The translations under genes were made by a program, and so were the position numbers. Shown one piece after another: positions 2,240 to 29,936 of a DNA stretch of 30,495 nucleotides (the stretch's first letter is position 1; each line of letters begins with the position of its first letter). The notes beneath the pieces are model-generated. The model did not search any database, had not been told where the DNA came from, and worked only from the letters and a program-made list of their open reading frames with translations. The stretch comes from a virus. The stretch spans positions 1 through 30,495 of the IMG/VR virus record IMGVR_UViG_3300021470_000040; one strand, written 5' to 3'.

Positions 2240-2910
2240 TAGCAAGCGCAACACGACAGACTACCGAGGAAGGATTCCTCCAGAATACGTGGCTCGGGAA
2301 AAGTCTGCGCAGGCTTCCAGAGTTTCACGATTTCACGCTGCGACTCGCCCTAAACCGGAGTGATGGACTCCCAAAGTTCTACAACGAAGTAATCGCCGCG
2401 CACCCCGAGGAGGACATCATCACGATGCACGATGACCTGATGCTAGCGGATTCGTGGTTTGTTCCGAAGTTGAAAGAAGCTCTGAGTGAGTTCTCGGTGG
2501 TTGGCCTGTGCGGGTGCCTTACGCCTAAAGACGAGGCCCATATAGCATGGCATTCCGCAAAGCACTCCCCTTCCGGCCAGATCGGAACTGCGATTAGAGA
2601 CTCGCATGAGTCAGCTATGCAGTGCAACATTGCTACGTTTGGAGTGACGCCAGCGCGGGCCGCGGAGATGGACGGGGTGATGATTGCGTTTAACCCAAAG
2701 AACATTAGTGGCCTCCGGTTTGATGAGCGGTTCATGTATCACCACTACGATGTGGATTTCACGCTTGCTGCTGACAAGGGTGGACTGAAAGTTGGGACGT
2801 GGCCTATCTTCACAATCCACGTCAGCAACTCCGGAGACGGGTATCACAGCCGGTCTTTCCGCGAGAGTTCTGAAATGTTTTGCGCAAAGTGGGAGGCAGT
2901 AAAACAATGA
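2233..2910 (+). CDS. GT-A-type glycosyltransferase-like protein
   Basis: The 225-residue protein resembles small nucleotide-sugar glycosyltransferases. An acidic HDD motif stands at about residues 66-68 in ITMHDDLMLADSWFVPKL, where GT-A enzymes carry their metal-binding DxD. A GLCGC segment and a C-terminal FMYHHYDVDFTLAADKGG segment, reminiscent of the conserved acidic/His region of these enzymes, follow. It would transfer a sugar either to host surface glycans or to virion proteins. The start overlaps the stop of the tail gene, and the next gene overlaps its stop, so it is translated in the structural operon. The donor and acceptor cannot be read from sequence, and the assignment rests on motif pattern only. 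Confidence 0.55.
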   Translation: MVIASATRQTTEEGFLQNTWLGKSLRRLPEFHDFTLRLALNRSDGLPKFYNEVIAAHPEEDIITMHDDLMLADSWFVPKLKEALSEFSVVGLCGCLTPKDEAHIAWHSAKHSPSGQIGTAIRDSHESAMQCNIATFGVTPARAAEMDGVMIAFNPKNISGLRFDERFMYHHYDVDFTLAADKGGLKVGTWPIFTIHVSNSGDGYHSRSFRESSEMFCAKWEAVKQ

Positions 2911-3356
2911 GTCTCGGAGTTGGATCACAGTTGGATGCGCAGAACCGAGCGGATGAATATAACCGCAAATCGCGGGAGCATGCTGCACAGACAAAGATTG
3001 AGCGAGCTGTCCGTAATGAGTTGCGTGATGCGGGGGAAAAGTATGGCCGCGCCGAGGTGAAGGCAGAAATCGAGCGGCGGTCAAATCCCCCTAAGCAGGA
3101 CCAGTCCCCGATTCAAAACTCCGTGGAGTCAAACAAGGAAGCGTTTAAGCCCGTGTCGTTGGACTTAGAGCACTCCCCTGAACGTAGAACTTTACCATCT
3201 AGCAATATATCAGAATCCGGGTTTCCACTGCCTCCGCCAGACAACTCCAAAACAGCGGGACAGAGCATTCAGGACAGTGGTGGGCCAGGCTATGTGGGGC
3301 AATGGAAACCTCTCACTCTCTGTGATAATTCCGTCATTGAGGTTTGGACACGATGA
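2907..3356 (+). CDS. Hypothetical hydrophilic protein
   Basis: This 149-residue protein starts at the ATG at 2907, which overlaps the upstream stop (ATGA) and has a strong ribosome-binding site (GGGAGG at 2891-2896, 10 nt away). The N-terminal half is highly charged and probably helical (SLGVGSQLDAQNRADEYNRK onward). The C-terminal half is Pro/Ser-rich and likely disordered. No enzyme motif, signal peptide or membrane segment is visible. Its place between a glycosyltransferase and another small gene in a tightly overlapped run suggests a virion accessory or tail-assembly role, which is inference only. Confidence 0.65.
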   Translation: MSLGVGSQLDAQNRADEYNRKSREHAAQTKIERAVRNELRDAGEKYGRAEVKAEIERRSNPPKQDQSPIQNSVESNKEAFKPVSLDLEHSPERRTLPSSNISESGFPLPPPDNSKTAGQSIQDSGGPGYVGQWKPLTLCDNSVIEVWTR

Positions 3357-4015
3357 GCGCGAGACTTTCTGCTGTGCCTACCGGAAGCAGCGTGAGTCCT
3401 TGCTGCTGTCCTCCTCCTGCCCCTTGCTGCCTGTATCCATTTCCAGATCCGTCTGATAATGGAGGTCCATTTTATCGATGCGAAGATTTGCCAGATTCGA
3501 TTGAGTTCGTTATTGACGCTGACGCTCCGGTAGTGATGACTCGCGTTGATGGAGAATACCATTACACAGGGGCAGGATCGAGTGATATAACGGCTGAATT
3601 AGATGGAAGCTATTATTGGAACTGGAGTCTTAATCACGGAGCAATTCTCGGCCTTTCTAGCTGTCTGATTGGAATACAGAATGAACCTGATCATACGTTG
3701 TATTTTTATGATCAGTTTGCTGGATTACTTTACTTCTCCATCAACGGAATCGAATACACACTCACCCGCGAAAGCTTGTGCTACTGGAAAGTCTCAGCAG
3801 AAGGTCATAACGCTGCTGGGCCAGAAGGGATCTATGGGTTATATTACGAGGCGTTCACGCCTTACTCGAAAAACACAACCGTCCAACCGTATAATCTTTG
3901 TTGGGTGCTTAACTTTGTTGATCCTGACGAAAACTATTTTGAGATGGTCAAGGACGACCCGCAAAACGCTCCTGACGGAACATATGGAAGCGAGTTTCTT
4001 ACTGTAACCCAATGA
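3353..4015 (+). CDS. Hypothetical protein with Cys/Pro-rich N-terminus, possible virion protein
   Basis: Translation from the ATG at 3353 overlaps the upstream stop as ATGA and gives 220 residues. Near the N-terminus there is a Cys/Pro cluster (SPCCCPPPAPCC). The rest is rich in aromatic and acidic residues and looks like a beta-sheet domain (for example YYWNWSLNHGAILGLSSC and HTLYFYDQFAGLLYF). No family was recognised. No membrane helix is clear. The gene sits in the plus-strand tail-side operon and couples directly to the next small gene, so a minor structural or receptor-interacting protein is plausible but unproven. Confidence 0.6.
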   Translation: MSARLSAVPTGSSVSPCCCPPPAPCCLYPFPDPSDNGGPFYRCEDLPDSIEFVIDADAPVVMTRVDGEYHYTGAGSSDITAELDGSYYWNWSLNHGAILGLSSCLIGIQNEPDHTLYFYDQFAGLLYFSINGIEYTLTRESLCYWKVSAEGHNAAGPEGIYGLYYEAFTPYSKNTTVQPYNLCWVLNFVDPDENYFEMVKDDPQNAPDGTYGSEFLTVTQ

Positions 4016-4239
4016 CCTGCCCTCACCAGATCAGCATGGACAAGACCGGGCGCGGAAAATGCTCCCTCGGTCTATACGGAGGGTCACCGTGGATCTCGAA
4101 TTGCCTCGCCTGTATCAAGGCGGGGGAGAACACGCCAGAGTTTGCCGCCGAACTGTTCGCCAGAGCCGACAAGGCGCACCCGGCCAGCGCCCCCAAGGCA
4201 TCAGGCTGCTGCGATTCCAGTCTGAATCCTGCGCGTTGA
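4012..4239 (+). CDS. Small Cys-containing protein
   Basis: A 75-residue product that starts in an ATGA overlap with the preceding gene. It has six cysteines, including CLAC and a terminal CC pair, plus an early C-P-H, so metal binding is possible. The central stretch GRGKCSLGLYGGSPWISNC looks conserved-protein-like. It is the last gene of the left plus-strand run; about 55 bp without a gene follow. No function is assigned. Confidence 0.55.
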   Translation: MTCPHQISMDKTGRGKCSLGLYGGSPWISNCLACIKAGENTPEFAAELFARADKAHPASAPKASGCCDSSLNPAR

Positions 4240-4294
4240 AAAATAGTTAAAAAGATTTTGAACGAAGGTGTATCCGTCGTGTCTTACCTACACA

Positions 4295-4453
4295 ATGCTC
4301 AGACGAAACATCTCCTACCGGCCAGACCAAGTGTCCAAGATGCGGGATATCCGCAAGTGGACCGGGGAAAACATCTCGCAGCAGTTCCGCCAGTTCATTG
4401 ATTCCCTCCACGCACGACTCTCAAAAACCAACACCAAAAACCAACCAAAATAA
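4295..4453 (+). CDS. Ribbon-helix-helix-type small DNA-binding protein
   Basis: From the ATG at 4295 the product has 52 residues. Its pattern matches the ribbon-helix-helix fold: a short beta segment (RRNISYRP), a first helix (DQVSKMRDIRKWTG), a turn, and a second helix (ISQQFRQFIDSLHARL). RHH proteins bind DNA as dimers and usually repress their own or neighbouring promoters. A GTG at 4268 in the same frame would add nine residues and has AAGG just ahead of it, so the start is uncertain. The gene stands alone after a short gap and ends 4 bp before the SSB-like gene, which suits a regulator of the early genes downstream. The fold call is from pattern only. Confidence 0.5.
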   Translation: MLRRNISYRPDQVSKMRDIRKWTGENISQQFRQFIDSLHARLSKTNTKNQPK

Positions 4454-4457
4454 TACG

Positions 4458-5201
4458 ATGAGCCGCAGCAATCCTCAATCAAACACACCAAATCCCGCCA
4501 CGCGATTTTTCGAGTGGAAGGGAGCAACCGGAACCCTCTGCCACTACGACAAGGAGAAGAAGGAAAACATCACCGTGCCCAACGGGTTCACGTTCCTGGT
4601 CCTCGACCAGTTGAACTGCGTCACCGGCTACAACAAGAAGGCGAAAGTCGGATTGTTCAGCAACGAGGTCCGGGACACCACCACTGATCCCTTCGTCGTA
4701 AAGTTCTTCGATGGCGAACACATCGCGGAAGGACTCTGGGCGGCGATCAAGGAAAAGGTCGCGTTCAAGAAAGGCCAGTTCGCCAAGTCCGTTTACATCG
4801 CGTTCAAGGGAGACGACGGGAAGCTCACGCTGGGTAACATCCGATTCACAGGTTGTTCGCTGGGGCCGTGGTTTGACTTCACCAAGGCCAACCGCAAGGC
4901 TTGCGATTCCGGGGCCATCGTGATCAAGGCTGGCAAGCGGGACGAATCAGGGGATGTCGAGTTCACTCCTCCCACGTTCTCGTGCATCGAGGTTTCCGAG
5001 GAGACGAACAAGGCGGCAATCGAACTGGACCTCCAGTTGCAAGAGTTCCTCACTGGCTATTTCCAGCGCACGCACACCGACCGCGCCACTGATGGAATCC
5101 ACCAGCCTGACGCCCCGGACGATGTTCCCGAGCACCGGGAGGATACCACGGACCACACGGAGAAGGAAGTTTTCGATGAGTCTGAACAAGTCCCGTTTTG
5201 A
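4458..5201 (+). CDS. Putative single-stranded DNA-binding protein
   Basis: The ATG at 4458 follows the previous stop by 4 bp and gives 247 residues beginning MSRSNPQSN. The N-terminal ~150 residues form a likely beta-rich domain with FFEWKG, FTFLVLDQLNCVTGY and SNEVRDTTTDPFVVKFFDG. The C-terminal ~45 residues are strongly acidic and end FDESEQVPF. An acidic disordered tail finishing in a hydrophobic PF is the hallmark by which SSB proteins recruit partners. The following coiled-coil DUF1351-like gene and nearby nucleases fit a recombination/replication role. Direct OB-fold identification was not possible, so the call rests on the tail and context. Confidence 0.5.
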   Translation: MSRSNPQSNTPNPATRFFEWKGATGTLCHYDKEKKENITVPNGFTFLVLDQLNCVTGYNKKAKVGLFSNEVRDTTTDPFVVKFFDGEHIAEGLWAAIKEKVAFKKGQFAKSVYIAFKGDDGKLTLGNIRFTGCSLGPWFDFTKANRKACDSGAIVIKAGKRDESGDVEFTPPTFSCIEVSEETNKAAIELDLQLQEFLTGYFQRTHTDRATDGIHQPDAPDDVPEHREDTTDHTEKEVFDESEQVPF

Positions 5202-5204
5202 ACC

Positions 5205-5390
5205 ATGTTCACTCTGCACATAACTGAAACGCTCAACTCTCCAGACGGACTCCAATTGGAAGTGGAACGCCTCAAGATGACCGTGGACGGCCCCGTGGAC
5301 GTAATGCCCATCATTGCACTCCTTCAAAAGAAACCCAGCGCAACACGCCGGGACGCAGGAACCAAACGAAATGTCTCGCTCCAACAGTAA
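5205..5390 (+). CDS. Small hypothetical protein
   Basis: A 61-residue ORF beginning 3 bp after the SSB-like gene. It starts MFTLHITETLNSPDGLQLEV and has a basic C-terminus. Its last 20 bp overlap the start of the next gene in another frame. There is no clear ribosome-binding site, so translation would depend on coupling to the upstream gene. No family recognised. Confidence 0.45.
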   Translation: MFTLHITETLNSPDGLQLEVERLKMTVDGPVDVMPIIALLQKKPSATRRDAGTKRNVSLQQ

Positions 5391-6498
5391 ACCCACCGCC
5401 GAAACTCCCGACATGGAACTCGTCACCACGACTCCCGACCTGAGCATTATGCCACGCGCTGATGCGGCAGAAGTCTGGAAAGGGTTCCGAGAGCAGTTGG
5501 AAGCATTGAAGGAAACCGCCGACACGCTCGTTGTCACGGATGTCTCCCATGTCGAGGAGATTAAGTTGGCAAGAACCACTCGCATCACGTTCAAGAACAT
5601 CCGCTGTGCGGTTGAGGCACGCAGAAAGGAACTAGGTGATAGCCTCGTCAAAGCGACACAAAACCTGAACCGTGATGCGAGGGCGTTGAAAGAGTTCTGT
5701 GAATTGCGCGAGCAACGGCTTCTGGAGATGGAACTGTTTGCCGAGCGCAAGGAACAGGAACGGATCGCTGAGATTACCAAGGAACGGCAGGAGGCGGTCG
5801 CCCACTACGACGGGCAGATATTCGGTGTGGACTTTGGTGTGATGTCAGAGGAGGACTTTGACAAGTATCTCTCGACCTGTGAGGCAGCGCAGAACTTCCG
5901 GCTGGCAGAAGAGTCCCGTGTCGCTGCTGAAAAAGCTGCCAAGGAAAAGGCCGAGGCAGAGGAACGCGAACGGGTCCGTGTCGAGAACGAACGCCTGAAA
6001 GAGGAAGCCGCCGAACGGGATGCACTTCTCGCCAAGGAGCGGGAGGAACGGATGCTTGCCGACAAGAAGGCTTACGAGGAAAAGGTCGCACTCCAGATCG
6101 CCGCCGACAAGGAACGCGCCGACGCAGAAGCCATTCTCGCCAAGGAACGCGCAGAAGCCGCCGCAAGGGAAAAGGAAGCCAAGGATGCCTCCGACAAGGA
6201 AAAAGCCCGCCTGGAGGCCATTGCTGCCCACGCTGAAGCACAGCGACTGGAGTTGGAAGCCGAGGCCGAGCGCAAGCGGATCGCTGCCGAGGAGGAAGCC
6301 GCCAAGGTAGCCCTCGCGGAGAAACGCGCCGCCGCCGCCCCGGACAAGGAAAAACTCCTCCAGTTCGCTGCCAGTGTCCGTAACTTCCAACAGCCGATTT
6401 GCAAGACCGACGAGGGCAAGAAGGTCGCGGAAGAGGTTGCGCAGAAGACGCTCAACTTCGCCAACTGGATTGAAAAACTTGTGAAGGAAACGCTGTGA
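5371..6498 (+). CDS. Long coiled-coil protein, DUF1351-like
   Basis: From the ATG at 5371 (MSRSNSKPTAE) the protein has 375 residues. The N-terminal ~140 residues (VWKGFREQLEALKETADTLV, then KLARTTRITFKNIRCAVEAR) resemble the phage DUF1351-type domain found in recombination gene clusters. Residues ~150-320 are an extended Ala/Glu/Lys/Arg-rich coiled coil. The C-terminal ~55 residues (KEKLLQFAASVRNFQQP onward) form a separate small domain. An in-frame Met further upstream (5314) would overlap the preceding ORF and was not chosen. Position between the SSB-like gene and a second coiled-coil gene supports a DNA-recombination accessory role. The highly biased sequence produces long spurious frames on both strands. 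Confidence 0.6.
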   Translation: MSRSNSKPTAETPDMELVTTTPDLSIMPRADAAEVWKGFREQLEALKETADTLVVTDVSHVEEIKLARTTRITFKNIRCAVEARRKELGDSLVKATQNLNRDARALKEFCELREQRLLEMELFAERKEQERIAEITKERQEAVAHYDGQIFGVDFGVMSEEDFDKYLSTCEAAQNFRLAEESRVAAEKAAKEKAEAEERERVRVENERLKEEAAERDALLAKEREERMLADKKAYEEKVALQIAADKERADAEAILAKERAEAAAREKEAKDASDKEKARLEAIAAHAEAQRLELEAEAERKRIAAEEEAAKVALAEKRAAAAPDKEKLLQFAASVRNFQQPICKTDEGKKVAEEVAQKTLNFANWIEKLVKETL

Positions 6499-6851
6499 AT
6501 CTCGACAACAACGAAGTCCAGAAGATCCAACTGAGAATGCAGCAATGCACGAAGCAGTTGAACGACATGGCGGTGACAATGGGTGCCGCCAAGCAGGTCC
6601 GCGAAATGGCAAGCGACCGGCGCAAGCGTGCGCTGGCAATCGAAATGGTAAAAGCATTGAAGTGCGGAGAATCAGCTACGGCAGCGGATGCCATCGCCAG
6701 AGCATCAGATGGCTACGGAAGGGAGTTGGACGAGCAAGGCAAACAGCTTGCAGCGGCGGAATCCACTATCGCACAATGGTCAGCTACAGAGGCTTCCTTT
6801 GAGGCTTCCCGTTCGCTCCTTTCTCTCGTCAAGGCCACCATGAATTTATAG
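6495..6851 (+). CDS. Small helical hypothetical protein
   Basis: A 118-residue product starting at GTG 6495, which overlaps the upstream stop as GTGA. The sequence is helical throughout with heptad-like spacing (VQKIQLRMQQCTKQLNDMAV; later ELDEQGKQLAAAESTIAQW). No membrane segment or catalytic motif is visible. Tight overlap with the DUF1351-like gene suggests the two work together. It ends the early operon; a strong promoter follows immediately. Confidence 0.6.
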   Translation: MNLDNNEVQKIQLRMQQCTKQLNDMAVTMGAAKQVREMASDRRKRALAIEMVKALKCGESATAADAIARASDGYGRELDEQGKQLAAAESTIAQWSATEASFEASRSLLSLVKATMNL

Positions 6852-7041: not shown

Positions 7042-7227
7042 CCGTCTTGCTCTATTGAAAAATGTCCAAACAAATCTTTTGGAAGAGAAGGGTTGAAATT
7101 ATGTTGGACTCATTACAAGAGACTCAAAAAGCATGTTGAAAACCTTCAAGTGGTAACAAGATCAGAGCACATGAAAATACACCTTAAATTAAGAAGAGAT
7201 AGAAAGAAACACACCACAACATTATGA
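7042..7227 (+). pseudogene. HNH homing-endonuclease remnant
   Basis: In the frame that is open from 6889 to 7227, residues after 7042 carry a zinc-binding C-x4-C-x11-C-x2-H motif (CSIEKCPNK, then LCWTHYKRLKKH). This is followed at once by VENLQVVTRSEHMKIH, the typical C-terminal end of phage HNH endonucleases. The central part of the HNH fold, with the first catalytic His and the metal-binding region, is missing between KKH and VENL, as if deleted in frame. The stop overlaps the start of the exonuclease gene (ATGA). It could still be translated from the ATG at 6889 as a fusion with an out-of-frame reading of the mini-protein gene. Confidence 0.55.
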
Positions 7228-7892
7228 GCAATATCACTACCTTCTACGATCTGGAGTCGGGTCCAGACCGCAAACGCGCACTGGCACTGCTCCCTGAGTT
7301 TGATCCAGCCGAAATTAAGACGGGGAATCTTAAGGATCTAGATAAAATCCGCGAGAAAATCGAGTCCGCACGGGCAACCCATGAGGAGGACTGGATCTCC
7401 AAAGCGGCACTCAGGCCAGAAGTTGCCATCTGTCTCGCCATCGGAATCAAGCATGGTGACGACACAACAATTCTTCATGTCAACGGGAACGGTGGGGAGG
7501 AATCCATCATCAAGACATTTTGGATGATGCTGGAAGAGTCCCGCGCACAAAATCCTTGCTGGGCTGGTTATTGCTCAAACATCTTTGATTTACCGTTCCT
7601 GACGATCCGTTCCCGCATCCTTGGCATCCGTGTCCCGTCGGGTCTCCGCAGGGGAAGATACTGGTCGCAGGATCTCTTTGTGGATCTTCAAGACGAGTGG
7701 CTCCTCGGCAGGAACCGAATGGAAACGAAATCTTCCCTCGGCTACGTCGCCAAAGCCCTGGGAGTCGGGGAGAAGTCCGGCGACGGCAAAGACTTCGCGG
7801 ACACCTACGCCAAGGACGAGGCCAAGGCTCTCGCCTACCTTCGCAACGACATCGAATTGACCGCAGGAGTCGGGGCCAAGTTGGGATTCTGA
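7224..7892 (+). CDS. DnaQ-like (DEDDy) 3'-5' exonuclease
   Basis: The 222-residue protein shows the three exonuclease motifs of the DEDDy family. Exo I is FYDLESG with D9 and E11. Exo II is YCSNIFDLPFL with N119 and D122. Exo III is AYLRNDIELT with Y205 and D209. These acidic residues bind two metal ions that hydrolyse DNA from the 3' end. It resembles the stand-alone PolB-exonuclease-like phage proteins, which act in replication or recombination. The start overlaps the HNH-remnant stop as ATGA. It is the last ordinary gene before the integron-like block, whose first folded site begins 9 bp after its stop. Confidence 0.8.
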   Translation: MSNITTFYDLESGPDRKRALALLPEFDPAEIKTGNLKDLDKIREKIESARATHEEDWISKAALRPEVAICLAIGIKHGDDTTILHVNGNGGEESIIKTFWMMLEESRAQNPCWAGYCSNIFDLPFLTIRSRILGIRVPSGLRRGRYWSQDLFVDLQDEWLLGRNRMETKSSLGYVAKALGVGEKSGDGKDFADTYAKDEAKALAYLRNDIELTAGVGAKLGF

Positions 7893-7900
7893 TATGTGTG

Positions 7901-8002
7901 TTCCGAACGTCCGTGATGACCGGCAGCTACCCGGACACACGGCGCAACCTCGAAACCAAACTCCGACCGGGTAGCTGTTCGGTCGATCACATTGTTCGCA
8001 AT
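7901..8002. repeat. attC-like site 1
   Basis: Outer boxes CGAAC (7904-7908) and GTTCG (7994-7998) pair. After a short unpaired spacer, GTGATGACCG (7913-7922) pairs with CGGTCGATCAC (7980-7990) with one bulged G at 7985. Then CAGCTACCCGG (7924-7934) pairs perfectly with CCGGGTAGCTG (7967-7977), with TT against G between the two stems. The terminal loop is 32 nt. The 3' arm carries two more bases than the 5' arm. The 115-bp space between the exonuclease and the 58-aa gene is fully accounted for by this site. Confidence 0.7.
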
Positions 8003-8007
8003 TTATT

Positions 8008-8184
8008 GTGGAAATCAAATACTCAGCATACTGGAGAACCGAAAACGGTCATATCCGCATCACCAACGGGAAATTGGACGAGTCCGACATCAAGGAGGCC
8101 ATCGAGCGCAAAGAGGCGAGGGAAACCATCGACCACGTTCCTGTCACATTCACAAACGCCAGCTTTGACGGGGTGGATTTATGA
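8008..8184 (+). CDS. Cassette I: small hypothetical protein
   Basis: GTG at 8008, 6 bp after the cassette core GTTCGCAAT, opens a 58-residue ORF starting MEIKYSAYWRTENGHIRITN. It continues through a charged helix (KLDESDIKEAIERKEARET) to a short C-terminus ending FDGVDL. The stop codon abuts the R'' box of the next attC-like site, the usual geometry of a gene cassette. No family recognised. Confidence 0.55.
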   Translation: MEIKYSAYWRTENGHIRITNGKLDESDIKEAIERKEARETIDHVPVTFTNASFDGVDL

Positions 8185-8276
8185 TTGCGAACGCATAAGC
8201 TCATGGATGCCGACCAATTAACGCCCGAACTCGCGCAGGATGCTCCTCGGCATTCCATGCAGCGTCTTGTTAGCCC
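8184..8276. repeat. attC-like site 2
   Basis: R'' box ATTGCGAAC (8184-8192) and R' core GTTAGCCC (8269-8276) flank a hairpin. The arms are GCTCATGGATGCCGA (8199-8213) and TCGGCATTCCATGCAGC (8247-8263), fully complementary except for two extra bases on the 3' arm (C8260 and one T of 8253-8254). The unpaired spacers are GCATAA and GTCTT. R'' is the exact complement of the start of cassette I (GTTCGCAAT at 7994). The site lies inside the apparent 5' part of the Mom-like frame, so that gene must really start after it. Confidence 0.8.
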
Positions 8277-8283
8277 TCTTTTG

Positions 8284-8949
8284 GTGGTTGCGATACCCGC
8301 GAAGGAAGCCGAACCGTTCTTGCTGATGCGGCACTATGCAAAGCGCACGTGTCCGATCTCCTACGCCTTTGGAGCGTGGCGGGGAACGGAGCTTGTCGGG
8401 GTGGTGACGTATGGAACGCCTGTAAGCTCAAATCTACGGGATGGAATATGCGGCAAGGAATGGTCTGCCAACGTGCTAGAACTGAATCGCCTATGCTGTG
8501 AGAACTCCCCGAACGTGGCAAGCCTGCTGGTGGGAAGGTCACTGCGACTGCTGCCGAAACCGTCCGTGGTGGTGAGCTACGCGGACACGGCGCAAGGGCA
8601 TGTCGGCTACATCTACCAGGCAACGAACTTCATCTACACCGGACTGAGCGCGAAGCGCACAGACTGGAAAATCAAAGGCCGCGAACATCTCCACGGCGCA
8701 ACCGTAGCCGACGAAAGCCGAGGCCAAGCCAACCGCGCCGAATGGATGCGGGAGAAATACGGAGACGACTTCTATCTCGATGACCGCCCGCGAAAGCATC
8801 GCTACGTGTTCGCGGTGGGAACGAAAAAGCAACAGGCCGCAATCAGGGAGGCTCTCAAATACCCTGTGGAACCATACCCGAAAGGACAAAGCCAACGCTA
8901 TGAAATCAACGCACCGATCACCACGCAAACCGCCTTTCTCTTGGGCTAA
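8284..8949 (+). CDS. Cassette II: Mom-like DNA modification (acetyltransferase-fold) protein
   Basis: The protein resembles phage Mu Mom and related GNAT-fold proteins that modify adenines in phage DNA and so block host restriction enzymes. Visible conserved segments are FLLMRHYAKRTCPISYAFG, GVVTYGTPVSSNLRDGICG, VLELNRLCCEN, ASLLVGRSLRLLP, VVSYADTAQGHVGYIYQATN and FIYTGLSAKRTDW. The frame is open upstream to an ATG at 8203 and TTG at 8185, but those codons lie in attC-like site 2. Family members begin near VVAIPAKEAEPFLL, so GTG 8284 (or TTG 8281), a few bases after GTTAGCCC, is preferred. The length from there is 221 residues. The TAA stop lies inside the R'' box of the next site. Mom proteins need a divalent metal and act with phage or host cofactors that cannot be seen here. 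Confidence 0.8.
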   Translation: MVAIPAKEAEPFLLMRHYAKRTCPISYAFGAWRGTELVGVVTYGTPVSSNLRDGICGKEWSANVLELNRLCCENSPNVASLLVGRSLRLLPKPSVVVSYADTAQGHVGYIYQATNFIYTGLSAKRTDWKIKGREHLHGATVADESRGQANRAEWMREKYGDDFYLDDRPRKHRYVFAVGTKKQQAAIREALKYPVEPYPKGQSQRYEINAPITTQTAFLLG

Positions 8950-8997
8950 CGCAAAAGTGGCCGATCCGAAGGATTCGGCCCACTGACTTGTTCGCTA
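8943..8997. repeat. attC-like site 3
   Basis: R'' GGGCTAAC (8943-8950) contains the stop codon of the Mom-like gene; the R' core is GTTCGCTA (8990-8997). AAC pairs with GTT. Unpaired spacers are GCAAA and GACTT, 5 nt each. The arms AGTGGCCGATCC (8956-8967) and GGATTCGGCCCACT (8971-8984) are complementary but for two extra bases on the 3' arm, and the loop is GAA. R'' is the exact complement of the cassette II start (GTTAGCCC at 8269). It could also act as a transcription terminator, but it has no T-run. Confidence 0.8.
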
Positions 8998-8999
8998 TT

Positions 9000-9323
9000 A
9001 TGATCGCAATAGTAAACACAGGACCGCACGACGACCCAAACCCGCTTGGAGAACGCACCTATGAAGTGCGGATCAACTCCAAAGTCATCACGACATTCCG
9101 ACACAAGCGCGGGGATGGACTAGGGCAATGCCTGCTTGCCGCAAGCAAGGCTGTCGAAAAGCAAAAATGGGAACCCCTCATGGACTGCCAAAGCCTCACG
9201 CGCTGCTTGACCGGATACGAACCAAGCGGCCCCGCTTCTGTATATTTAGCGAACGCCGTCATCACCAACGCGGATGACGGCTCCGCAACCAAAGACCCGC
9301 ATCAATCCGCGTTTGGTGCATGA
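9000..9323 (+). CDS. Cassette III: small hypothetical protein
   Basis: ATG at 9000, two bases after the core GTTCGCTA, gives 107 residues starting MIAIVNTGPHDDPNPLGERT. The segment FRHKRGDGLGQCLLAASKAV looks like a conserved phage hypothetical protein core. The last ~25 residues (from NAVITNADDG on) are encoded by attC-like site 4 itself, so they are probably a read-through tail rather than part of the ancestral protein. No function is assigned. Confidence 0.6.
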   Translation: MIAIVNTGPHDDPNPLGERTYEVRINSKVITTFRHKRGDGLGQCLLAASKAVEKQKWEPLMDCQSLTRCLTGYEPSGPASVYLANAVITNADDGSATKDPHQSAFGA

Positions 9324-9336
9324 ACTTGTTCGGATT
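9247..9336. repeat. attC-like site 4
   Basis: R'' TAGCGAAC (9247-9254) and R' GTTCGGATT (9328-9336) flank a hairpin with arms ATCACCAACGCGGAT (9261-9275) and ATCCGCGTTTGGTGCAT (9305-9321). The arms are complementary except for two extra bases on the 3' arm (C9319 and one T of 9312-9314). Spacers are 6 nt each (9255-9260, 9322-9327). R'' is the exact complement of the cassette III start (GTTCGCTA at 8990). Confidence 0.8.
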
Positions 9337-9338
9337 TT

Positions 9339-9629
9339 ATGTTCTCACAACAACCAAAAGACAAACCAACGCTTGATTTCAACCTTCGCCACTTGCCCAA
9401 AAAGCGGCGGGATGAGATCGAGGAAACAGTCACGCTCGGAGAATTGGAAAACGACCCGAAACTGACCGGATGCAACCTCTCATGTGGTGGAGGGCAGGGG
9501 TTCTTCCTCATGCCAAACACCTACCACATCGAGCAGGCGTTGAATCAATACTACGCGCACCTTGGTGGGAAAACCTATATGGCCGTAGGCGGAATCAGGG
9601 TGGTCGTTGATAATCCGAACAGTGATTAG
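9339..9629 (+). CDS. Cassette IV: small hypothetical protein
   Basis: ATG at 9339 lies two bases after the core GTTCGGATT and opens a 96-residue ORF starting MFSQQPKDKPTLDFNLRHLP. A basic/acidic N-terminal half is followed by GCNLSCGGGQGFFLMP and a C-terminal GGKTYMAVGGIRVVVDNP that looks beta-rich. There is no signal peptide or membrane helix. The R'' box of site 5 overlaps its last codons. Family and function unknown. Confidence 0.6.
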   Translation: MFSQQPKDKPTLDFNLRHLPKKRRDEIEETVTLGELENDPKLTGCNLSCGGGQGFFLMPNTYHIEQALNQYYAHLGGKTYMAVGGIRVVVDNPNSD

Positions 9630-9645
9630 ACAACAATCGTTAGAT
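9612..9645. repeat. Short site 5: degenerate attC or attI-like junction
   Basis: AATCCGAAC (9612-9620) is the exact complement of the cassette IV start (GTTCGGATT at 9328). GTTAGAT (9639-9645) fits the classical integron core GTTRRRY and touches the start codon of the recombinase remnant. Between them only GATT (9624-9627) and AATC (9635-9638) pair, so there is no full attC hairpin. A non-folding site next to the integrase start is what an attI site looks like, if the array is read on the minus strand. Confidence 0.5.
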
Positions 9646-10047
9646 ATGCAAAAACATAATCCCATCAAAGACAAGTGGTTGTCAAGACTTAGCTCTCGTC
9701 TAAGGTTGACCAACTCCGCGTGGAAAACCGAACAGGCGTATTGTCGGACAGTCTCATGGGGTTGGGATGATGCGGACAAGATGCCGAAGGAATGGAGCCG
9801 TGAAAGAAAGGTCGAGGAATGGCTTTCCCGCATGGTGAGGGAACGGGATATTTCCGCGTCAACCCAGAACTGCCGATTCAACGCACTGATCTACTCCTTC
9901 CGGCACTGCTACGGAACCCATGTTGCTGATTCTGGCCAGAACATACGATCCTTACAAATGGCTCTCGGCCACAAATCGCTTGAAACAACAATGGGGTATG
10001 TGCATTCAGACGGATTGAACATCAAAAGCCCCCTCCAACCCGCATGA
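9646..10047 (+). pseudogene. Internally deleted integron-type tyrosine recombinase (IntI-like)
   Basis: From the ATG at 9646 the ORF encodes 133 residues, against roughly 320-340 for integron integrases. Residues 1-83 match a core-binding N-terminal domain (WKTEQAYCRTVSWGW, KVEEWLSRMVRERDISAST, QNCRFNALIYS). At about residue 84 this joins directly to the catalytic C-terminus: FRHCYGTH (R86-H87), ALGHKSLETTMGYVH (H109, Y118) and GLNIKSPLQP. The last segment resembles the GVRSPLD end of IntI proteins. The first catalytic Arg, the catalytic Lys and the IntI-specific insertion are absent, so it cannot be a working recombinase alone. The deletion is in frame, so a stable DNA-binding product is possible. 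Confidence 0.75.
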
Positions 10048-18581: not shown

Positions 18582-18970
18582 TTTGATTCTTCGGTTGGCG
18601 TTACAGCGACCACGGCTTCAAGGGGAGTATTTATATTGACCGAAACAGTTGTTGGACATTTGGATAAAGTCGCTTCTTTTTCCTCATGGATTTTCGCAAT
18701 ATGTATTTCGTGGAGTTCTTTCCTCTGGTAATCCCGCTCCTCCCTCCATTTTCGTCGATTGTCGAGCATCATCGAAGAAGCATAAAACATCATCCCAATA
18801 AGTCCGACAGGAGCACCGACGAACAATATCCACTCGCGCATAAACATGGCCCACGGCGGCAGCACAGCTATCGCCCTTTCGGTTGTGCTGCCAGCCACGG
18901 TAGCAAATGTCGTCAACCCAGCCGAGGCGAGCATCCCAATAAATTTCTCGGTCGAGTTGCCTAATAACAT
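18578..18970 (-). CDS. Small membrane protein, possible holin
   Basis: A 130-residue protein. Hydrophobic stretches at about 10-27 (IGMLASAGLTTFATVAGS) and 46-68 (WILFVGAPVGLIGMMFYASS) are followed by a charged coiled-coil-like region (RRKWREERDYQRKELHEIHI) and a soluble tail. Holin or holin-accessory function is suggested by size, topology and its place at the head of the lysis cluster. It competes for the holin role with the gene at 17191-17562. Confidence 0.5.
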   Translation of the reverse strand: MLLGNSTEKFIGMLASAGLTTFATVAGSTTERAIAVLPPWAMFMREWILFVGAPVGLIGMMFYASSMMLDNRRKWREERDYQRKELHEIHIAKIHEEKEATLSKCPTTVSVNINTPLEAVVAVTPTEESK

Positions 18971-18986
18971 GGCGTTGGTAGGCGGA

Positions 18987-19571
18987 TTACAAGGAGGTCA
19001 CAGCATCCACGGTGGTTGCAGTGGCGAGAGTGGTTGCGCGGGTCAGAGTGGAGTCCAGCAAGGCGACGAGTGCAGCCTGTCCTGACAGGAGTGCATCCGG
19101 CACAATACAGGTTGCCACAGTTTCCTTGGCCTTGGAGATGTTTCCCGATTTTGCTGCGACATCCGCTGCTGTCAACACAGGCGAAAACTGTGCCTGCACT
19201 CCAAGAGGAAGTTGCCCGAAGAGGACGAGAGTTGCAGCGCGTCCGGTGTTGTAAATCTCCCGTGCCTTTGCAGTCTTTGCAGAGGCAAGTTTCAACGCGA
19301 GTTGCTGTGCGATCTCCGTGTCGAAATCCGTGGGCCACGAACGTTCGCTCCTTGTGTCTGGACCGTGGTTGCGAACGCAGGAAACATTACACCCATGCTC
19401 GGTGATGGTTCCGACAACTCTGAACCCAGCCCCCGTTGGTGCGGTATAAGTATCCGTCCTTACGGATTGATTTGGGTCGTCTCCAACCTGAGTGGGGGAC
19501 ACTCGTTGCGGGGTAGAAAGTGCGACTGCGAACGCCGCATCCATTGCTAAGTTGATTGCTGTTAGATTCAT
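18987..19571 (-). CDS. Hypothetical protein between tail and lysis genes
   Basis: A 194-residue Ala/Thr-rich protein starting MNLTAINLAMDAAFAVALST. The middle has GAGFRVVGTITEHGCNVSCV and a helical C-terminus (ALLSGQAALVALLDSTLTRA). The first ~20 residues are mildly hydrophobic but not a clear signal peptide. It is probably a virion or tail-associated protein from position. No family recognised. Confidence 0.55.
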   Translation of the reverse strand: MNLTAINLAMDAAFAVALSTPQRVSPTQVGDDPNQSVRTDTYTAPTGAGFRVVGTITEHGCNVSCVRNHGPDTRSERSWPTDFDTEIAQQLALKLASAKTAKAREIYNTGRAATLVLFGQLPLGVQAQFSPVLTAADVAAKSGNISKAKETVATCIVPDALLSGQAALVALLDSTLTRATTLATATTVDAVTSL

Positions 19572-19576
19572 AGATT

Positions 19577-20254
19577 TTATGTGGTGAAAGATTCAAAGTC
19601 GAGTCCGTCGCCTGAGTTGTAGAGGGCGGCGATCTCCGCGTCTGTTAATGCCCTGCCCCAAACGGAAGCGGAATCCACCCGCCCCACATAAGGGTCGAGG
19701 TTTCCGGAATCTCCCCCGATAGTCACAGGAAGCGCTACCGGGACGGGACCGGAAAAACTCCCCTCTGACGACTGTGCGTCCACAAAGAGTTTGTGTCTCG
19801 TCCCGTCATATCGCATGGCAACAAAAACCCACACGCCTTCGGCGGGGGATGGGTAAAGGGCAATCTGCGAGCCATCGAGGAATCCATAGATAGTCGCGCC
19901 GAGATTGCTTAAAAAGCAATAGTGTCCTCCAGCCTGCCCCGCGCCGAGAATCAAACCCTGCACGTTGTCTCCCACGCTTTCGACATAATGCCACGCAGCA
20001 AGGGTGAATGCCGTCCTGTCATGCAGCGAAAGATCACTGGTCAAATAACTGTCCGGCCCACCAAAGAGTGCCGAGTTTCCGAGTTTTCCCGCGGCGTATC
20101 CAACCCCATCAACTGCCTCTACCATCGTATGCCCGTTGCCCGAACTGTCCGCACGGTTCCCGCTAGTTTCGTTGAGTTTCCAGTGTGCGAGGAGTCCCAC
20201 CAAAAGCGCAGGAGGCTCGCTGTCTGTTTTCCAGAATGAAAACGGGAATGGCAT
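19577..20254 (-). CDS. LamG/concanavalin-like tail protein
   Basis: The ATG at 20254 (overlapping the upstream stop as TAATG) gives 225 residues. After a short N-terminus the LamG-type jelly roll is seen: LLAHWKLNETSGNRADSSGN, LGNSALFGGPDSYL, FTLAAWHYVE, WVFVAMRYDGTRHKLFVD and VDSASVWGRALTDAEIAALY. This is the standard Laminin G/pentraxin-like pattern of phage fibre tips, which bind carbohydrate. Start choice excludes a basic upstream extension that is an out-of-frame reading of the fibre gene. It probably extends or caps the fibre encoded just upstream. Confidence 0.75.
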   Translation of the reverse strand: MPFPFSFWKTDSEPPALLVGLLAHWKLNETSGNRADSSGNGHTMVEAVDGVGYAAGKLGNSALFGGPDSYLTSDLSLHDRTAFTLAAWHYVESVGDNVQGLILGAGQAGGHYCFLSNLGATIYGFLDGSQIALYPSPAEGVWVFVAMRYDGTRHKLFVDAQSSEGSFSGPVPVALPVTIGGDSGNLDPYVGRVDSASVWGRALTDAEIAALYNSGDGLDFESFTT

Positions 20255-21417
20255 TAGAAGTTTTGGACGACCGATCCGTAGATCGTGTTGCCGATGTTGA
20301 TGAAGGTGAAAACGTCGGTGTGTGCGCCTACAGTGAGCACAGGAGGAGTCCCGCCGGACCAGAGGATCCATGGCCATGTCGCTGTCCAGTTGTCGCCCGT
20401 GTTCGTGACGGCGACGACGATGGTTTTCCCGTCGATGATGTTTGAAAACGTGAAGGTGGTGTTTTCGATCAGCGTGATGGAAAAGACCTCCCCCACGGTC
20501 CAGTCAAGGTCATAGGCAGAGAGGGCGACCGTTGTGGTCGGCGTGAGGTAGTCGGTGCCAGCGACTGCTGCCGAGATGGTCGAGCCGTCGGATTTGACGA
20601 GGCCGGTGATTGCGAGAACCACGGGATCGGTTTCGGTGGCGATGTAATCGGTGCCAGCGACTGCTGCCGAGATGTTCCCGCTTCCGTCAGATTTTATCAG
20701 GCCTGAAATTGCTCCGACAACAGGATCGGTTTCGGTGGCGACGTAGTAGTTGTCAAGGTTTGCTCGAAGGCTTAGCAGGGGATTGTTAATGTCCCATGTG
20801 AGTCCTGTGCCGTCGCCTGTGGGCGCGAGGTAGTCGGTTCCGGAGACTGCTGCCGAGATGGTCGAGCCGTCGGATTTGACGAGGCCGGTGATTGCGAGAA
20901 CCACGGGGTCGGTTTCGGTGGCGACGTAATCGGTGCCAGCGACTGCTGCCGAGATGTTCCCGCTTCCGTCAGATTTTATCAGGCCTGAAATTGCTCCGAC
21001 AGCAGGATCGGTTTCGGTGGCCACTTCAAGACTCCACACAGCCGCATCTGTCGTGCTGTCTGTGCAAGTGTAGGCATCCCCGTTATCCAGAATCCGCCTC
21101 GACCCGACGACATAACCTTTGGTGGCATCGTCCGTTGCTGTTGGCACAGCACTGAAGCCGTATTGTTCAACGCGAATCGTAAACCCGTCCTGCCCCATAA
21201 CATAGAGTCGCCCCGCCTCCCACTTCAGCTCATAGTCTATGGAGCAGACTTGAGCGATGCCTTTGTTGCCGCCTAAGCCTGCGTCCGTTGTTCCCTCTCT
21301 CAGTTTCGATCCGTTGTGGAATATGATGTCGGCACCATCGTCCATCGTGCCGCCAGCGAGGGGCAGTTTGTCAGCTCCTCCAGACAACGCTGTTTGCAGT
21401 TGTGAAATGGAACTCAT
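20254..21417 (-). CDS. Repeat-containing tail fibre protein
   Basis: 387 residues. The N-terminus (MSSISQLQTALSGGADKLPL, AGGTMDDGADIIFHNGSKL) is typical of phage fibre heads. The middle has four copies of a ~32-residue repeat with VATETDPV, I.GL.KSDGS, ISAAV.GTDYL. The C-terminal domain (DLDWTVGEVFSITLIENTTF, then VAVTNTGDNWTATWPWILWS) is beta-rich. Such repeats form trimeric shaft segments in receptor-binding fibres. The LamG gene follows with one overlapping base pair set, so both are likely parts of the adsorption apparatus. Confidence 0.75.
   Translation of the reverse strand: MSSISQLQTALSGGADKLPLAGGTMDDGADIIFHNGSKLREGTTDAGLGGNKGIAQVCSIDYELKWEAGRLYVMGQDGFTIRVEQYGFSAVPTATDDATKGYVVGSRRILDNGDAYTCTDSTTDAAVWSLEVATETDPAVGAISGLIKSDGSGNISAAVAGTDYVATETDPVVLAITGLVKSDGSTISAAVSGTDYLAPTGDGTGLTWDINNPLLSLRANLDNYYVATETDPVVGAISGLIKSDGSGNISAAVAGTDYIATETDPVVLAITGLVKSDGSTISAAVAGTDYLTPTTTVALSAYDLDWTVGEVFSITLIENTTFTFSNIIDGKTIVVAVTNTGDNWTATWPWILWSGGTPPVLTVGAHTDVFTFINIGNTIYGSVVQNF
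20551..21024. repeat. Two ~190-bp direct repeats in the fibre gene
   Basis: The segment 20551-20742 recurs at 20833-21024, an offset of 282 bp (94 codons), with only a few base differences. Each copy holds two of the protein repeats. Near identity at DNA level indicates recent duplication or gene conversion, which lets fibre length change by recombination. Confidence 0.75.
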
Positions 21418-21419
21418 AA

Positions 21420-21872
21420 TTAATCAACTACCTCCGTGTTCGGACCTGTGATGGAAACTAGACACCATACCCCACCAATGACTCTCAGTGTAATGAGGTG
21501 CGACTTCCAGATCTCAAGCGTCACAGGAAGTACGGCGCGGACTGCTGCTGGCATTTTAATGCTGGCATCTAAATCTAGCAAGTACGCTCCATTTGCATAT
21601 TGTATCTCAAAGTACAGCACGGAGGCTGTAGGTGCTGGAGTAGGAGCAATAAGTGTCGTGTCTGTATTTATCCAGCAATACTGGTAATTTCCGTCCGCCA
21701 AATCTGGCTGGATGCCCTCGCCAGTTGGGGATGGGATCGCAAACGGGACTGTTAAGGAAAATAAATCAGACGCAGATAATTTCTCATCTTTTGTCGGCCC
21801 AGATACAGCAAAGAACTTGCCAGCAAGCGTTGAAGCTGTAGATGCCCAATTGTAAATCCGTTTATTTGCCAT
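21420..21872 (-). CDS. Hypothetical structural protein
   Basis: 150 residues, MANKRIYNWASTASTLAGKF onward, beta-rich with SVLYFEIQYANGAYLLDLDA and HLITLRVIGGVWCLVSITGP. It lies 2 bp upstream of the fibre gene and follows small head-tail candidates. Possibly a tail-fibre attachment or baseplate protein; no motif proves it. Confidence 0.55.
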   Translation of the reverse strand: MANKRIYNWASTASTLAGKFFAVSGPTKDEKLSASDLFSLTVPFAIPSPTGEGIQPDLADGNYQYCWINTDTTLIAPTPAPTASVLYFEIQYANGAYLLDLDASIKMPAAVRAVLPVTLEIWKSHLITLRVIGGVWCLVSITGPNTEVVD

Positions 21873-21877
21873 AATCG

Positions 21878-22366
21878 TTATCCTTGTATCGCAACTTCTC
21901 CTGAAGTTACACCGTCATCGTAAAGGGTTGCCCCATCTCCACTGCCATCATCAAATAGCATAAATCCAGTAGTGTCAATCCCCTCTTCAATAACTATCAA
22001 TGCAAGAACAACCAAGATTGGAAGGTCTTGGTAAAATGCAACATAGCTGCTATCTTCTCCCTTCAGTGCCGCAAGAATTCTTGCCAATGCACTCATTTCA
22101 TCCCATGAATGGAATGATGAATCGCCTGAAATCTGATTATAGATGTCGCTCCAGGCATATGTTTTTGGGAGTGACAGGTAGTCAGGCAATGATTTTTCCG
22201 AACCATACGCCACAGCAAGCAATCCATAGATGTGGTCTTTTGGCAGGAGGTAGTAGTCCTCGATTACCCCAAACCCTTGGTATCCTGCCAACCATGCAGA
22301 CAAGATAACAGCCTTCGGATTGCTTGCGAGTGCCGCTACCTCAGAGTTGAGGTCTGGCGCGGACAT
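21878..22366 (-). CDS. Hypothetical head-tail region protein
   Basis: 162 residues, helical first half (SAPDLNSEVAALASNPKAVI, LSAWLAGYQGFGVIEDYYLL), with a glycine/aspartate-rich C-terminus (FDDGSGDGATLYDDGVTSGE). It lies between the capsid-side genes and the fibre genes. A connector or adaptor protein is plausible from gene order. Confidence 0.5.
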   Translation of the reverse strand: MSAPDLNSEVAALASNPKAVILSAWLAGYQGFGVIEDYYLLPKDHIYGLLAVAYGSEKSLPDYLSLPKTYAWSDIYNQISGDSSFHSWDEMSALARILAALKGEDSSYVAFYQDLPILVVLALIVIEEGIDTTGFMLFDDGSGDGATLYDDGVTSGEVAIQG

Positions 22367-22370
22367 CGCC

Positions 22371-22637
22371 TTACGCTGCTCCCCCCATAATCTGCTTCCC
22401 GAAGTTCACAGGCTGCTTTGCTGCATCAGGTTGTTCCATAGGCATCTCGTCCTTGGGTTCACCCTTTGGTTCGGATTTCTTATCCTTCGCATCTTCCTCG
22501 TCTGGAAGTTCGATCCCAGCTAGTTTTATTGCGACAAGTTCCATCCCTTGCAACTTGAATGTGACAAGCTCCTCAAACTCTTGACCGTCTTTTGTGTTTT
22601 CTGGAACTTCGTATCCTTCAGGTATTTCTATTTTCAT
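22371..22637 (-). CDS. Small acidic hypothetical protein
   Basis: The ATG at 22637 has GGAG 10 nt upstream and gives 88 residues, starting MKIEIPEGYEVPENTKDGQE. The C-terminal third is charged and Pro-rich, likely disordered. Downstream of the capsid gene, it may be a head decoration or accessory protein, but nothing in the sequence proves it. Confidence 0.55.
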   Translation of the reverse strand: MKIEIPEGYEVPENTKDGQEFEELVTFKLQGMELVAIKLAGIELPDEEDAKDKKSEPKGEPKDEMPMEQPDAAKQPVNFGKQIMGGAA

Positions 22638-22658
22638 AATAATTTCACTCCTCAAAGA

Positions 22659-22686
22659 CTGCGCCTCCGTTTTACGGGAAGCGCAG
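22659..22686 (-). promoter_or_regulatory. Hairpin after the capsid gene
   Basis: CTGCGCTTCCCGT and ACGGAGGCGCAG fold with one bulge and one weak pair around a short A-loop in the 66 bp between the capsid stop and the next start. There is no long T-run. It may attenuate transcription or protect the abundant capsid message 3' end. Confidence 0.4.
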
Positions 22687-22703
22687 CTTGTTGAAGGTTG
22701 ATA

Positions 22704-23921
22704 CTATTCACCATAACCGCTACCCGTGGGGCAAGCGATCAGGTCGTTAGCAAGATTGCAACGAAGGTGCAAGATGTAGTAGCCCCAAGAAGGGACAATG
22801 CTCTTGACTGCGCTGCCCATTTTGGCCCTGAAGAAACCGCTGTTTTCATCTGGATTACAGGTACGGTCGTACTTGTTAACCCATTTGAGGTCGCCGGTAT
22901 AGTTCTGAGGTCCGAAGACCACTTTTGAACCAACTTTGAGGTTTGCATTCGGGACCAGCCATTCCTGCGCTTTAGGAACGAACACGATGGTCGAACCGTA
23001 CTTCGCGGACTTATAGGCCGAACTGATGATTGCCTTGGTTCCCTTGGTTGCACCAGTGGTGCTGTAAGGGGCGATTTCGACATATCCACCTTCTCCGTCA
23101 TCGTTAAACCGTTTCGGGAACGGGCGAGAGTGGAACATCAGACCAGCATAGGCTTTCTTTGGCAGCACAACTGCGCCGTTTGGCCCAAGCAGATCGTTAA
23201 CACGGTCGCTCCAGCGGACGTCCTGACGGAGGTCATCGCTAAGTTTGATGAGGTTCTCGGCACTGGCTCGGTCGGTAAGGACATGGAACACTGGTGCGCC
23301 ATCATCGGTTACCGCATCACCGTCATCTCCAGCGTTGTCCTCATAGAGGGCTTCGTGGATGCCGCGCAGGATACCCATTGTGAGTGGCGAGGTCGGCTGA
23401 GTGGACGGAAATGTCCCACCAGAGGATTCAGGCAGACCAACGGCAGCAACAACTTTGTGTTCTGCCAACTCGAAAAGATCGGCATCGTATCGATTGATCC
23501 ATTCAACATTGATGTTGTCCTGAATGCCCTTGATATAGGCGTTGACATCGTCTTCTGGGAAAGTTGATGTGCGAACGTCCTCCAGACAGATCCAGTCGCT
23601 CTCCAGGGCTTGCACCTTGAGATTAAAGGTCTTCTGGTCGAATGCATATCCGACTTTCTTGACTGGGACTTTGCACCCGTCAACGGACGAACCGTTAGAG
23701 ATATCCACATCCGTCCAGCCTGAGCCAGTGGCGATGGTGCGCTGTGCGATTGTGTTGGTCACAACCTTGCCCATGTGGTCTGGGAAGGCAGATTTGGAAA
23801 CGAGCCGCAAAAGCGGATCTTTGTAGAGTCCGAGACGATAAGTGCCTTGGGCAATGCGTCCGGTCTCCCGTTGAAAGTTGTCGTTGATTGCCTCGCATGT
23901 GAGGCCCGTAGGTGCTGACAT
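22704..23921 (-). CDS. Major capsid protein
   Basis: 405 residues, with GGAG upstream of the start. It follows the scaffold gene, separated by a terminator and its own promoter and leader, as expected for the most abundant head protein. The sequence lacks signal peptide and membrane segments, is mixed alpha/beta, and has segments such as GTYRLGLYKDPLLRLVSKSA, HVLTDRASAENLIKLSDDLR and VNDLLGPNGAVVLPKKAYAG that fit an HK97-like capsid. Assignment is by order (terminase, portal, scaffold, capsid), length and expression signals; I did not match a named family. Confidence 0.75.
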   Translation of the reverse strand: MSAPTGLTCEAINDNFQRETGRIAQGTYRLGLYKDPLLRLVSKSAFPDHMGKVVTNTIAQRTIATGSGWTDVDISNGSSVDGCKVPVKKVGYAFDQKTFNLKVQALESDWICLEDVRTSTFPEDDVNAYIKGIQDNINVEWINRYDADLFELAEHKVVAAVGLPESSGGTFPSTQPTSPLTMGILRGIHEALYEDNAGDDGDAVTDDGAPVFHVLTDRASAENLIKLSDDLRQDVRWSDRVNDLLGPNGAVVLPKKAYAGLMFHSRPFPKRFNDDGEGGYVEIAPYSTTGATKGTKAIISSAYKSAKYGSTIVFVPKAQEWLVPNANLKVGSKVVFGPQNYTGDLKWVNKYDRTCNPDENSGFFRAKMGSAVKSIVPSWGYYILHLRCNLANDLIACPTGSGYGE

Positions 23922-24098
23922 ATTGTTAGAATTCTCCTGAGTTAAGTTTGCTGAATTACACTCCAGATGATCCCTTTCGGGCTGGATTGCTACTGTCTCC
24001 GCTGCGCTGCGGACTTAGACGCAAATCACTAACTAGGAGGCGTTCTTTCCCTGCACCAACGAGGGGTGGAGACCAATTCCACTTATGTCTAGAAATAC
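23922..24098 (-). promoter_or_regulatory. Structured leader of the capsid message
   Basis: No gene is seen in the 283 bp between scaffold and capsid genes. Downstream of the promoter the leader can form CCGCAGCGCAGCGG. It can also form a hairpin with TCCAG and CTGGA arms (23962-23986 region) enclosing a CCC-GAAA-GGG GNRA-type loop. GGAG then precedes the capsid ATG. It may stabilise the capsid mRNA or regulate its translation. Confidence 0.45.
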
Positions 24099-24127
24099 TG
24101 ATTAGACGGTTTCTGAAAACTCGTCAA
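24099..24127 (-). promoter_or_regulatory. Candidate promoter of the capsid gene
   Basis: On the minus strand TTGACG (24127-24122), 17-bp spacer, TAATCA (24104-24099). The -35 matches 5 of 6 consensus bases; the -10 is weak. It lies directly after the scaffold terminator, which supports separate capsid transcription. Confidence 0.4.
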
Positions 24128-24153
24128 CAACTATTTACGTTTTTTTGATAAAT

Positions 24154-24188
24154 AAAAAAGACCCCTGCCGGATTGAACAGCAGGGACC
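24154..24188 (-). terminator. Intrinsic terminator after the scaffold gene
   Basis: On the minus strand GGTCCCTGC and GCAGGGGTC pair over 9 bp (two G-U) around a short loop, followed at once by TTTTTTATTT. This is a textbook rho-independent terminator, 17 bp past the scaffold stop. Confidence 0.75.
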
Positions 24189-24204
24189 AGTTTGTAGGGG
24201 GTGA

Positions 24205-25449: not shown

Positions 25450-25452
25450 AAA

Positions 25453-25779: not shown

Positions 25780-25782
25780 AAA

Positions 25783-28065: not shown

Positions 28066-28081
28066 GAATTCTGAAGACTTT

Positions 28082-29914: not shown

Positions 29915-29936
29915 GCGCGGGGATTCACTGTACTAT
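29908..29936 (+). promoter_or_regulatory. Promoter of the small terminase-like gene
   Basis: TTGTCA (29908-29913), 17-bp spacer, TACTAT (29931-29936). The start point would lie 1-3 bp before the ATG at 29945, giving a leaderless or almost leaderless transcript. The -35 box overlaps the large terminase start codon on the other strand. Confidence 0.5.

Follow-up and report, generated by a model that had tools for sequence, protein, structure and literature searches.

Integrons are gene-collecting devices that are best known for gathering antibiotic-resistance genes. They are viewed as devices of bacteria, in which transcription of the cassettes starts at a promoter divergent from the integrase gene intI. 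In Treponema denticola, the integrase is turned relative to the normal array. This 'reverse integron' has intI and the array in the same direction (PMC4909258). Integrons and attC clusters with methylase cargo were described in 21 phages by Qi et al. in 2023; two attC sites of the Tetrasphaera phage TJE1 recombine with attI1 in the laboratory, and most of the complete phage integrons listed there are fragments derived from a host or class 1 integron (PMC9892861). Here we describe a cassette array in viral DNA of 30,495 nucleotides (IMG/VR virus record IMGVR_UViG_3300021470_000040, positions 1 to 30,495), the whole of which is called the window. The region is very probably a compact phage integron, with an IntI that lacks its catalytic centre, an attI directly upstream of it, and four cassettes whose genes are inverted.

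Like bacterial integrons, both of class 1 and of the sedentary chromosomal type, the window has a recombinase remnant that matches the IntI family best, an attI beside intI, attC hairpins that each contain two extrahelical bases, cassettes with complementary terminal boxes, and an array 5' of intI with an attC polarity leading away from it. Unlike in bacterial integrons, the genes oppose attC and face intI, the cores are mostly GTTCGNN, the IntI is without its centre, and the array lies within a phage operon. Co-directional intI and cassette genes are shared with T. denticola, but there the integrase is turned, whereas in the window each cassette has its gene turned around. The recombination sites and the integrase of the window are as follows.

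7902..8000, minus strand: attC site 1, attI-distal end of the array, plus-strand boxes TCCGAAC / GTTCGCA
8186..8275, minus strand: attC site 2, plus-strand boxes TGCGAAC / GTTAGCC
8944..8996, minus strand: attC site 3, plus-strand boxes GGCTAAC / GTTCGCT
9248..9334, minus strand: attC site 4, plus-strand boxes AGCGAAC / GTTCGGA
9614..9645, minus strand: putative attI without a hairpin, immediately 5' of intI; box TCCGAAC (minus-strand GTTCGGA) and ATTAGACAAC
9646..10047, plus strand: intI remnant, 133 amino acids (TIGR02249, PF13495, PF00589; collinear alignment)

The array is a real integron, far above chance. Sites were detected by a scanner (AAC/GTT boxes, spacers of 4-6 nucleotides, a stem with single bulges) and by a covariance model of 34 bacterial and plasmid attC sites, none taken from the window. 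The structure of this model was written by hand, and its E-values are rough by construction; RNAalifold gave no consensus fold on the attC alignment; an earlier model, for that reason sequence-only, was replaced by this one. Within the window, the top matches of the model were the four hairpins, each in minus-strand orientation: site 1 with 16.2 bits (E 0.07; scanner score 15.0), site 2 with 24.9 bits over 8216-8275 (scanner 13.0), site 3 with 27.3 bits (scanner 10.0) and site 4 with 36.8 bits (E 5e-7; scanner 15.5). The next match reached 10.9 bits. An initial annotation, made from the letters alone, had described hairpins flanked by AAC/GTT boxes, with an unpaired spacer and an inner stem that bears two extrahelical bases, and had named the lack of any attC score above background as grounds for giving up the integron reading. 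All four sites proved to have these features, and their model scores exceeded all others in the window. The window holds four two-bulge sites, compared with a mean of 0.061 and a maximum of 2 in 1000 dinucleotide shuffles of it, and site 1 folded better than every shuffle.

In an integrated array, each cassette is expected to have two complementary boxes, one per end. A chain of such boxes was counted as a mark of an integron, because integrated cassettes should keep their complementary ends. Pairs matching at 7/7 positions were found in 4/4 cassettes (GTTCGCA at 7994 with TGCGAAC at 8186, GTTAGCC at 8269 with GGCTAAC at 8944, GTTCGCT at 8990 with AGCGAAC at 9248, and GTTCGGA at 9328 with TCCGAAC at 9614), compared with only 5-6/7 for the two boxes within any single site. 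The exact chain has three links and a fourth at attI, versus 0 in 1000 shuffles; complementary chains are also present in the bacterial and plasmid control arrays. The cores GTTCGGA, GTTCGCA, GTTAGCC and GTTCGCT fully match GTTRRRY in 0/4 cases. This consensus is not strictly required, since bacterial arrays with full chains deviate from it too, foremost that of L051, a bacterial metagenome-assembled genome (MAG; loci are designated here by L and a number).

TJE1 also carries a phage attC array, and its three sites scored 32.1, 24.1 and 23.9 bits under the bacterial model, similar to those of the window; DNA methyltransferases are cargo in the phages of Qi et al. (PMC9892861). Unlike in the window, the genes of TJE1 follow attC polarity in our rescan, and there is no IntI. 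The scanner found no array in Polaribacter phage P12002L or Pseudoalteromonas phage H101, both tested by Qi et al.

The attC sites read on the minus strand, and attI, attC and intI are arranged in the usual way, the array extending leftward from attI, because the strand of the model matches, the arm of the extrahelical bases, the bases flanking the boxes and the motif of attI all agree. In all four sites, the 3' arm of the plus strand carries both extrahelical bases, as it does in a class 1 control with minus-strand genes. A C before R' and AA after R'' were seen only in the minus reading of the window sites; C before R' was present in 49/49 control attC sites. The fifth site, at 9614-9645, showed no fold above shuffles, and its box, motif and position mark it as the probable attI. 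Its box TCCGAAC is the exact complement of the other box of the attI-proximal cassette. The motif CGAAC-N4-ATTAGACAAC occurs with equal spacing in the window and in the bacterial attI of L051, and similar motifs are found 5' of intI in many phage integrons; a search of viral contigs with the attI pattern gave 29 matches, none of them beside an array. By this attC polarity, crossovers in the window should fall at minus-strand G^TT, which is plus-strand AA^C. Cassette limits were set from the box positions with crossovers assumed there, giving the following cassettes and genes.

7908..8191, minus strand: attI-distal cassette, 284 base pairs (bp), contains open reading frame (ORF) 1
8192..8949, minus strand: cassette, 758 bp, contains mom
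8950..9253, minus strand: cassette, 304 bp, contains most of ORF3
9254..9619, minus strand: cassette beside attI, 366 bp, contains ORF4 minus its last three codons and stop
8008..8184, plus strand: ORF1, 58 amino acids, best codon score of the six frames, no Pfam match
8278..8949, plus strand: mom-like DNA modification gene (Pfam Mom 1.1e-38, PHROG 1384 2.8e-52)
9000..9323, plus strand: ORF3, 107 amino acids, called by codon score, extends beyond the cassette boundary
9339..9629, plus strand: ORF4, 96 amino acids, called by codon score, stop codon within attI

Genes were called by a self-trained codon model, which can fail in GC-rich contigs (L139, L159). In every cassette the best-scoring open frame was on the plus strand. 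All four window genes are thus antisense to attC, as they lie on the plus strand by codon score or, for mom, also by homology, while attC reads on the minus strand; they are co-directional with intI and the phage operon. The frame of mom is open from 8185, with a first ATG at 8203, its homology starts right after the box at 8269, and its end coincides exactly with the cassette boundary. ORF3 resembles an 80-amino-acid protein of Aeromonas phage 4_L372X (E 3e-5), and no match in phages was found for ORF4. The cassette direction assumed in the initial annotation was opposite to that deduced from the model hits, the bulge arm, the bases beside the boxes and attI. Its description of genes each followed by their own site was accordingly wrong, as in the true polarity the hairpin stands upstream of its gene, and the folded site that it placed after the fourth gene is the putative attI, without a hairpin.

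The layout of the window, with attC antisense to intI and 5' of it and with genes co-directional with intI and the phage genes, was common to most viral loci. A search of metagenomic viral contigs with an IntI profile yielded 442 IntI-like stretches, the best 80 of which were kept. By model-called sites, attC was antisense to intI in 122 of 126 hits in 74 viral loci, and the array genes were opposite to attC polarity in 105 cases and the same in 10. Among the arrays found by the scanner, 72 genes of viral loci opposed attC polarity and 14 followed it; for bacterial and plasmid loci the counts were 2 opposed and 26 in agreement. Ten of those 14 genes are in one contig, L148, which has a canonical array of 12 sites and an IntI placed among bacterial IntIs; it was counted as viral in the scanner tally and left out of the model-called one. 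The difference between 105:10 in viral loci and 2:26 in bacterial and plasmid loci gave a Fisher p of 3e-18, with gene counts that are not independent, as related phages share cassettes. Counted per locus (model-called), the genes were all opposite in 27 and all same in 4, 2 loci were mixed, and 9 had no gene called. L175 was rejected as a 'same' locus, as it shares identical DNA with L178, an 'opposite' locus.

Two of the four 'same' loci (L157 and L188) have a second layout, in which the array lies downstream of intI and both attC and the genes run in the direction of intI. Together with Virus Rctr41k (L205, found by the scanner), they resemble the reverse layout of Treponema. The second layout spans 4680-10101 in L205, 7961-10824 in L157 and 6636-8230 in L188; L157 and L188 fall inside an 11-row viral IntI group (support 100). 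In both phage layouts, intI, the cassettes and the neighbouring phage genes share one direction, and this suggests that co-transcription has been selected for. The window looks like a decayed member of a widespread phage integron form.

In other phages with such arrays, gene-inverted cassettes are gained one at a time, with the crossover at plus-strand AAC. L177 and L189 are identical on both sides save for one 520-bp cassette in L189 at attI. The crossover for such arrays was placed at plus-strand AAC because the insertion junction of this extra cassette is at AAC. A single cassette of ~340 bp at attI separates L141 from L144, and several cassettes separate L137 from L138. Gain cassette by cassette is supported for such arrays by these related layouts in phages with an intact IntI. 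The initial annotation had also named an invariant block without precise cassette junctions in related phages as grounds against it; two of these pairs, from phages other than that of the window, differ by exactly one cassette, with exact junctions at attI. Several phage cassettes (L178 5792-7490, L196 6856-6880) have a common leader after the plus-strand box, about GTCCGAAGCGA-AGGA. A likely ribosome-binding site closes this leader, as though it and attC had a common source.

These junctions also bear on the possibility that the window holds ordinary plus-polarity cassettes, each a gene followed by its own attC, with crossovers at plus-strand GTT, an odd bulge arm and a damaged last attC. Such an arrangement would place all four ORFs wholly inside their own cassettes, three of them starting 10-14 nucleotides after a GTT box, and mom would have its stop codon within the R'' box, a common feature of ordinary cassettes. 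We nevertheless consider it very improbable: the model hits, the bulge arm, the bases beside the boxes and the position of attI all give the minus strand, the last site is without a hairpin, and other phages that share the layout have their insertion junction at AAC, not GTT.

The presence of an IntI-like recombinase remnant beside the array, noted in the initial annotation, was confirmed. Its best NCBIfam family was TIGR02249, with 61 bits in two stretches, versus 37 for XerC. An N-terminal SAM-like domain is joined to the C-terminal box II / tyrosine region; compared with full-length IntIs, the remnant is collinear at both ends and ~185 central residues are missing. The protein should be inactive, since the central catalytic region is absent, and the phage would hardly shuffle its own cassettes any more, which amends the annotation's view of the array as a way for phages to take up and shuffle anti-defence genes. 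That annotation was right in reading a cassette array in a phage genome, as the attC model, the box chain and IntI attest, and this has a precedent (PMC9892861).

In a quick tree, most viral IntIs fell within two viral groups, one with 43 viral rows and one MAG contig (support 95), the other with 31 viral rows (support 81). The tree required 9 label changes, versus 40 in shuffles. The rows nearest to the decayed remnant of the window are bacterial, which would suit a fragment of a host chromosomal integron, captured by chance through illegitimate recombination and without a role in a phage system. Phages can capture pieces of chromosomal integrons (PMC9892861), and the integron of L051 (JAAUTS010000001, titled Blastochloris sp.; positions 2269-6686) has GTTCGNN cores in most sites and the window-type attI motif. 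Unlike the window, however, L051 has an intact IntI and a canonical gene direction. Bacterial and plasmid arrays follow attC polarity by 26 to 2, whereas the window genes are 4/4 inverted and co-directional with the phage, and the same layout recurs in many phages. A chance capture is therefore very unlikely to explain the region. In 388 genomes of the phylum of L051, its own was the only window-type attI; the donor of the integron in the window may have been related to the L051 integron.

That the sites are chance hairpins, terminators or some other intergenic repeat can be practically dismissed: intergenic hairpins are common in phages and site 2 folds no better than shuffles, but the shuffle test, the exact box chain, the attC model and the adjoining IntI remnant speak against them, and no Rfam family fits the window hairpins.

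Several points weigh against the window being a decayed phage integron. ORF3 and ORF4 end 70 and 10 nucleotides past their own cassette boundaries, site 1 is marginal in the attC model at its E of 0.07, and the fold of site 2 has the weakness just given. The deletion in IntI could be an assembly error, and the remnant is short and fast-evolving (end branch 3.96), so that its placement with the viral groups is unsure. No second genome covers the array, and cassette movement was seen only in other phages.

If the region is a phage integron, an intact IntI would have inserted the cassettes at attI singly, as single-stranded hairpins. Gene-inverted cassettes would have been retained since only that orientation puts their genes under phage transcription, and cargo such as mom may protect phage DNA against host nucleases. 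A later deletion in IntI would have frozen the array of the window, and its sites could still serve as substrates for a different IntI present in the cell. Across the arrays, recognisable cargo was mostly DNA modification: Mom (2, window included), Dam (2) and N6_N4 methylases (2), along with several other DNA methyltransferase families and PAPS reductase-like proteins (2). The majority of cassette proteins were without recognised function.

Taken more widely, it is likely that phages own an integron system, with dedicated IntI lineages and a separate pool of gene-inverted cassettes that are co-transcribed with the operon and carry DNA-modification genes among many unknowns; the window would be a member with a dead integrase. 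Phage integrons were reported in 2023, and the accessible text of that report makes no mention of gene-inverted cassettes (PMC9892861). We found no description of gene-inverted phage cassettes or of dedicated phage IntI lineages in the open-access literature, preprints aside. Such a phage form with inverted cassettes implies that IntI-driven gene capture serves viruses too. It could supply DNA modification, and perhaps other counter-defence genes, cassette by cassette from a pool separate from the bacterial one. If so, phage cassettes would be antisense once inserted in a normal bacterial integron. Screens that assume genes in attC polarity could misread the architecture. This raises the questions of how gene-inverted cassettes are made, whether the two pools exchange cassettes, and whether phage IntIs recombine their sites during infection.

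The genes around the phage arrays included portal, terminase, tail, primase and phage integrase families. Many of these integron phages look temperate, with a second tyrosine recombinase in the IntI region. In a scan of flanking genes at loci L126-L181, 11 of 50 matched phage integrase families. L077, a contig binned in a Rubrivivax MAG, was identical over 9 kb to the IntI-bearing viral contigs L202 and L204, a hint that one of these phages infects Burkholderiales.

The window itself is an incomplete linear fragment, not a whole genome. L002 is identical to it over 18916-30474 and extends ~1.8 kb past its end; it is the same phage and stops short of the array region. No attC was found in the terminase relatives L002-L007, and searches of viral contigs by the exonuclease and by the IntI remnant found no close relative. 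This exonuclease is the left neighbour of the array.

7224..7892, plus strand: phage exonuclease (DNA_pol_B_exo2, Pfam 1.5e-8), left flank, ends 9 bp before the array

In the structural region, the minus-strand ORF at 20254-21417 contains two 206-bp copies of a repeat (20537-21024), 95.6% alike and 282 bp apart, which are accompanied by weaker, shorter copies.

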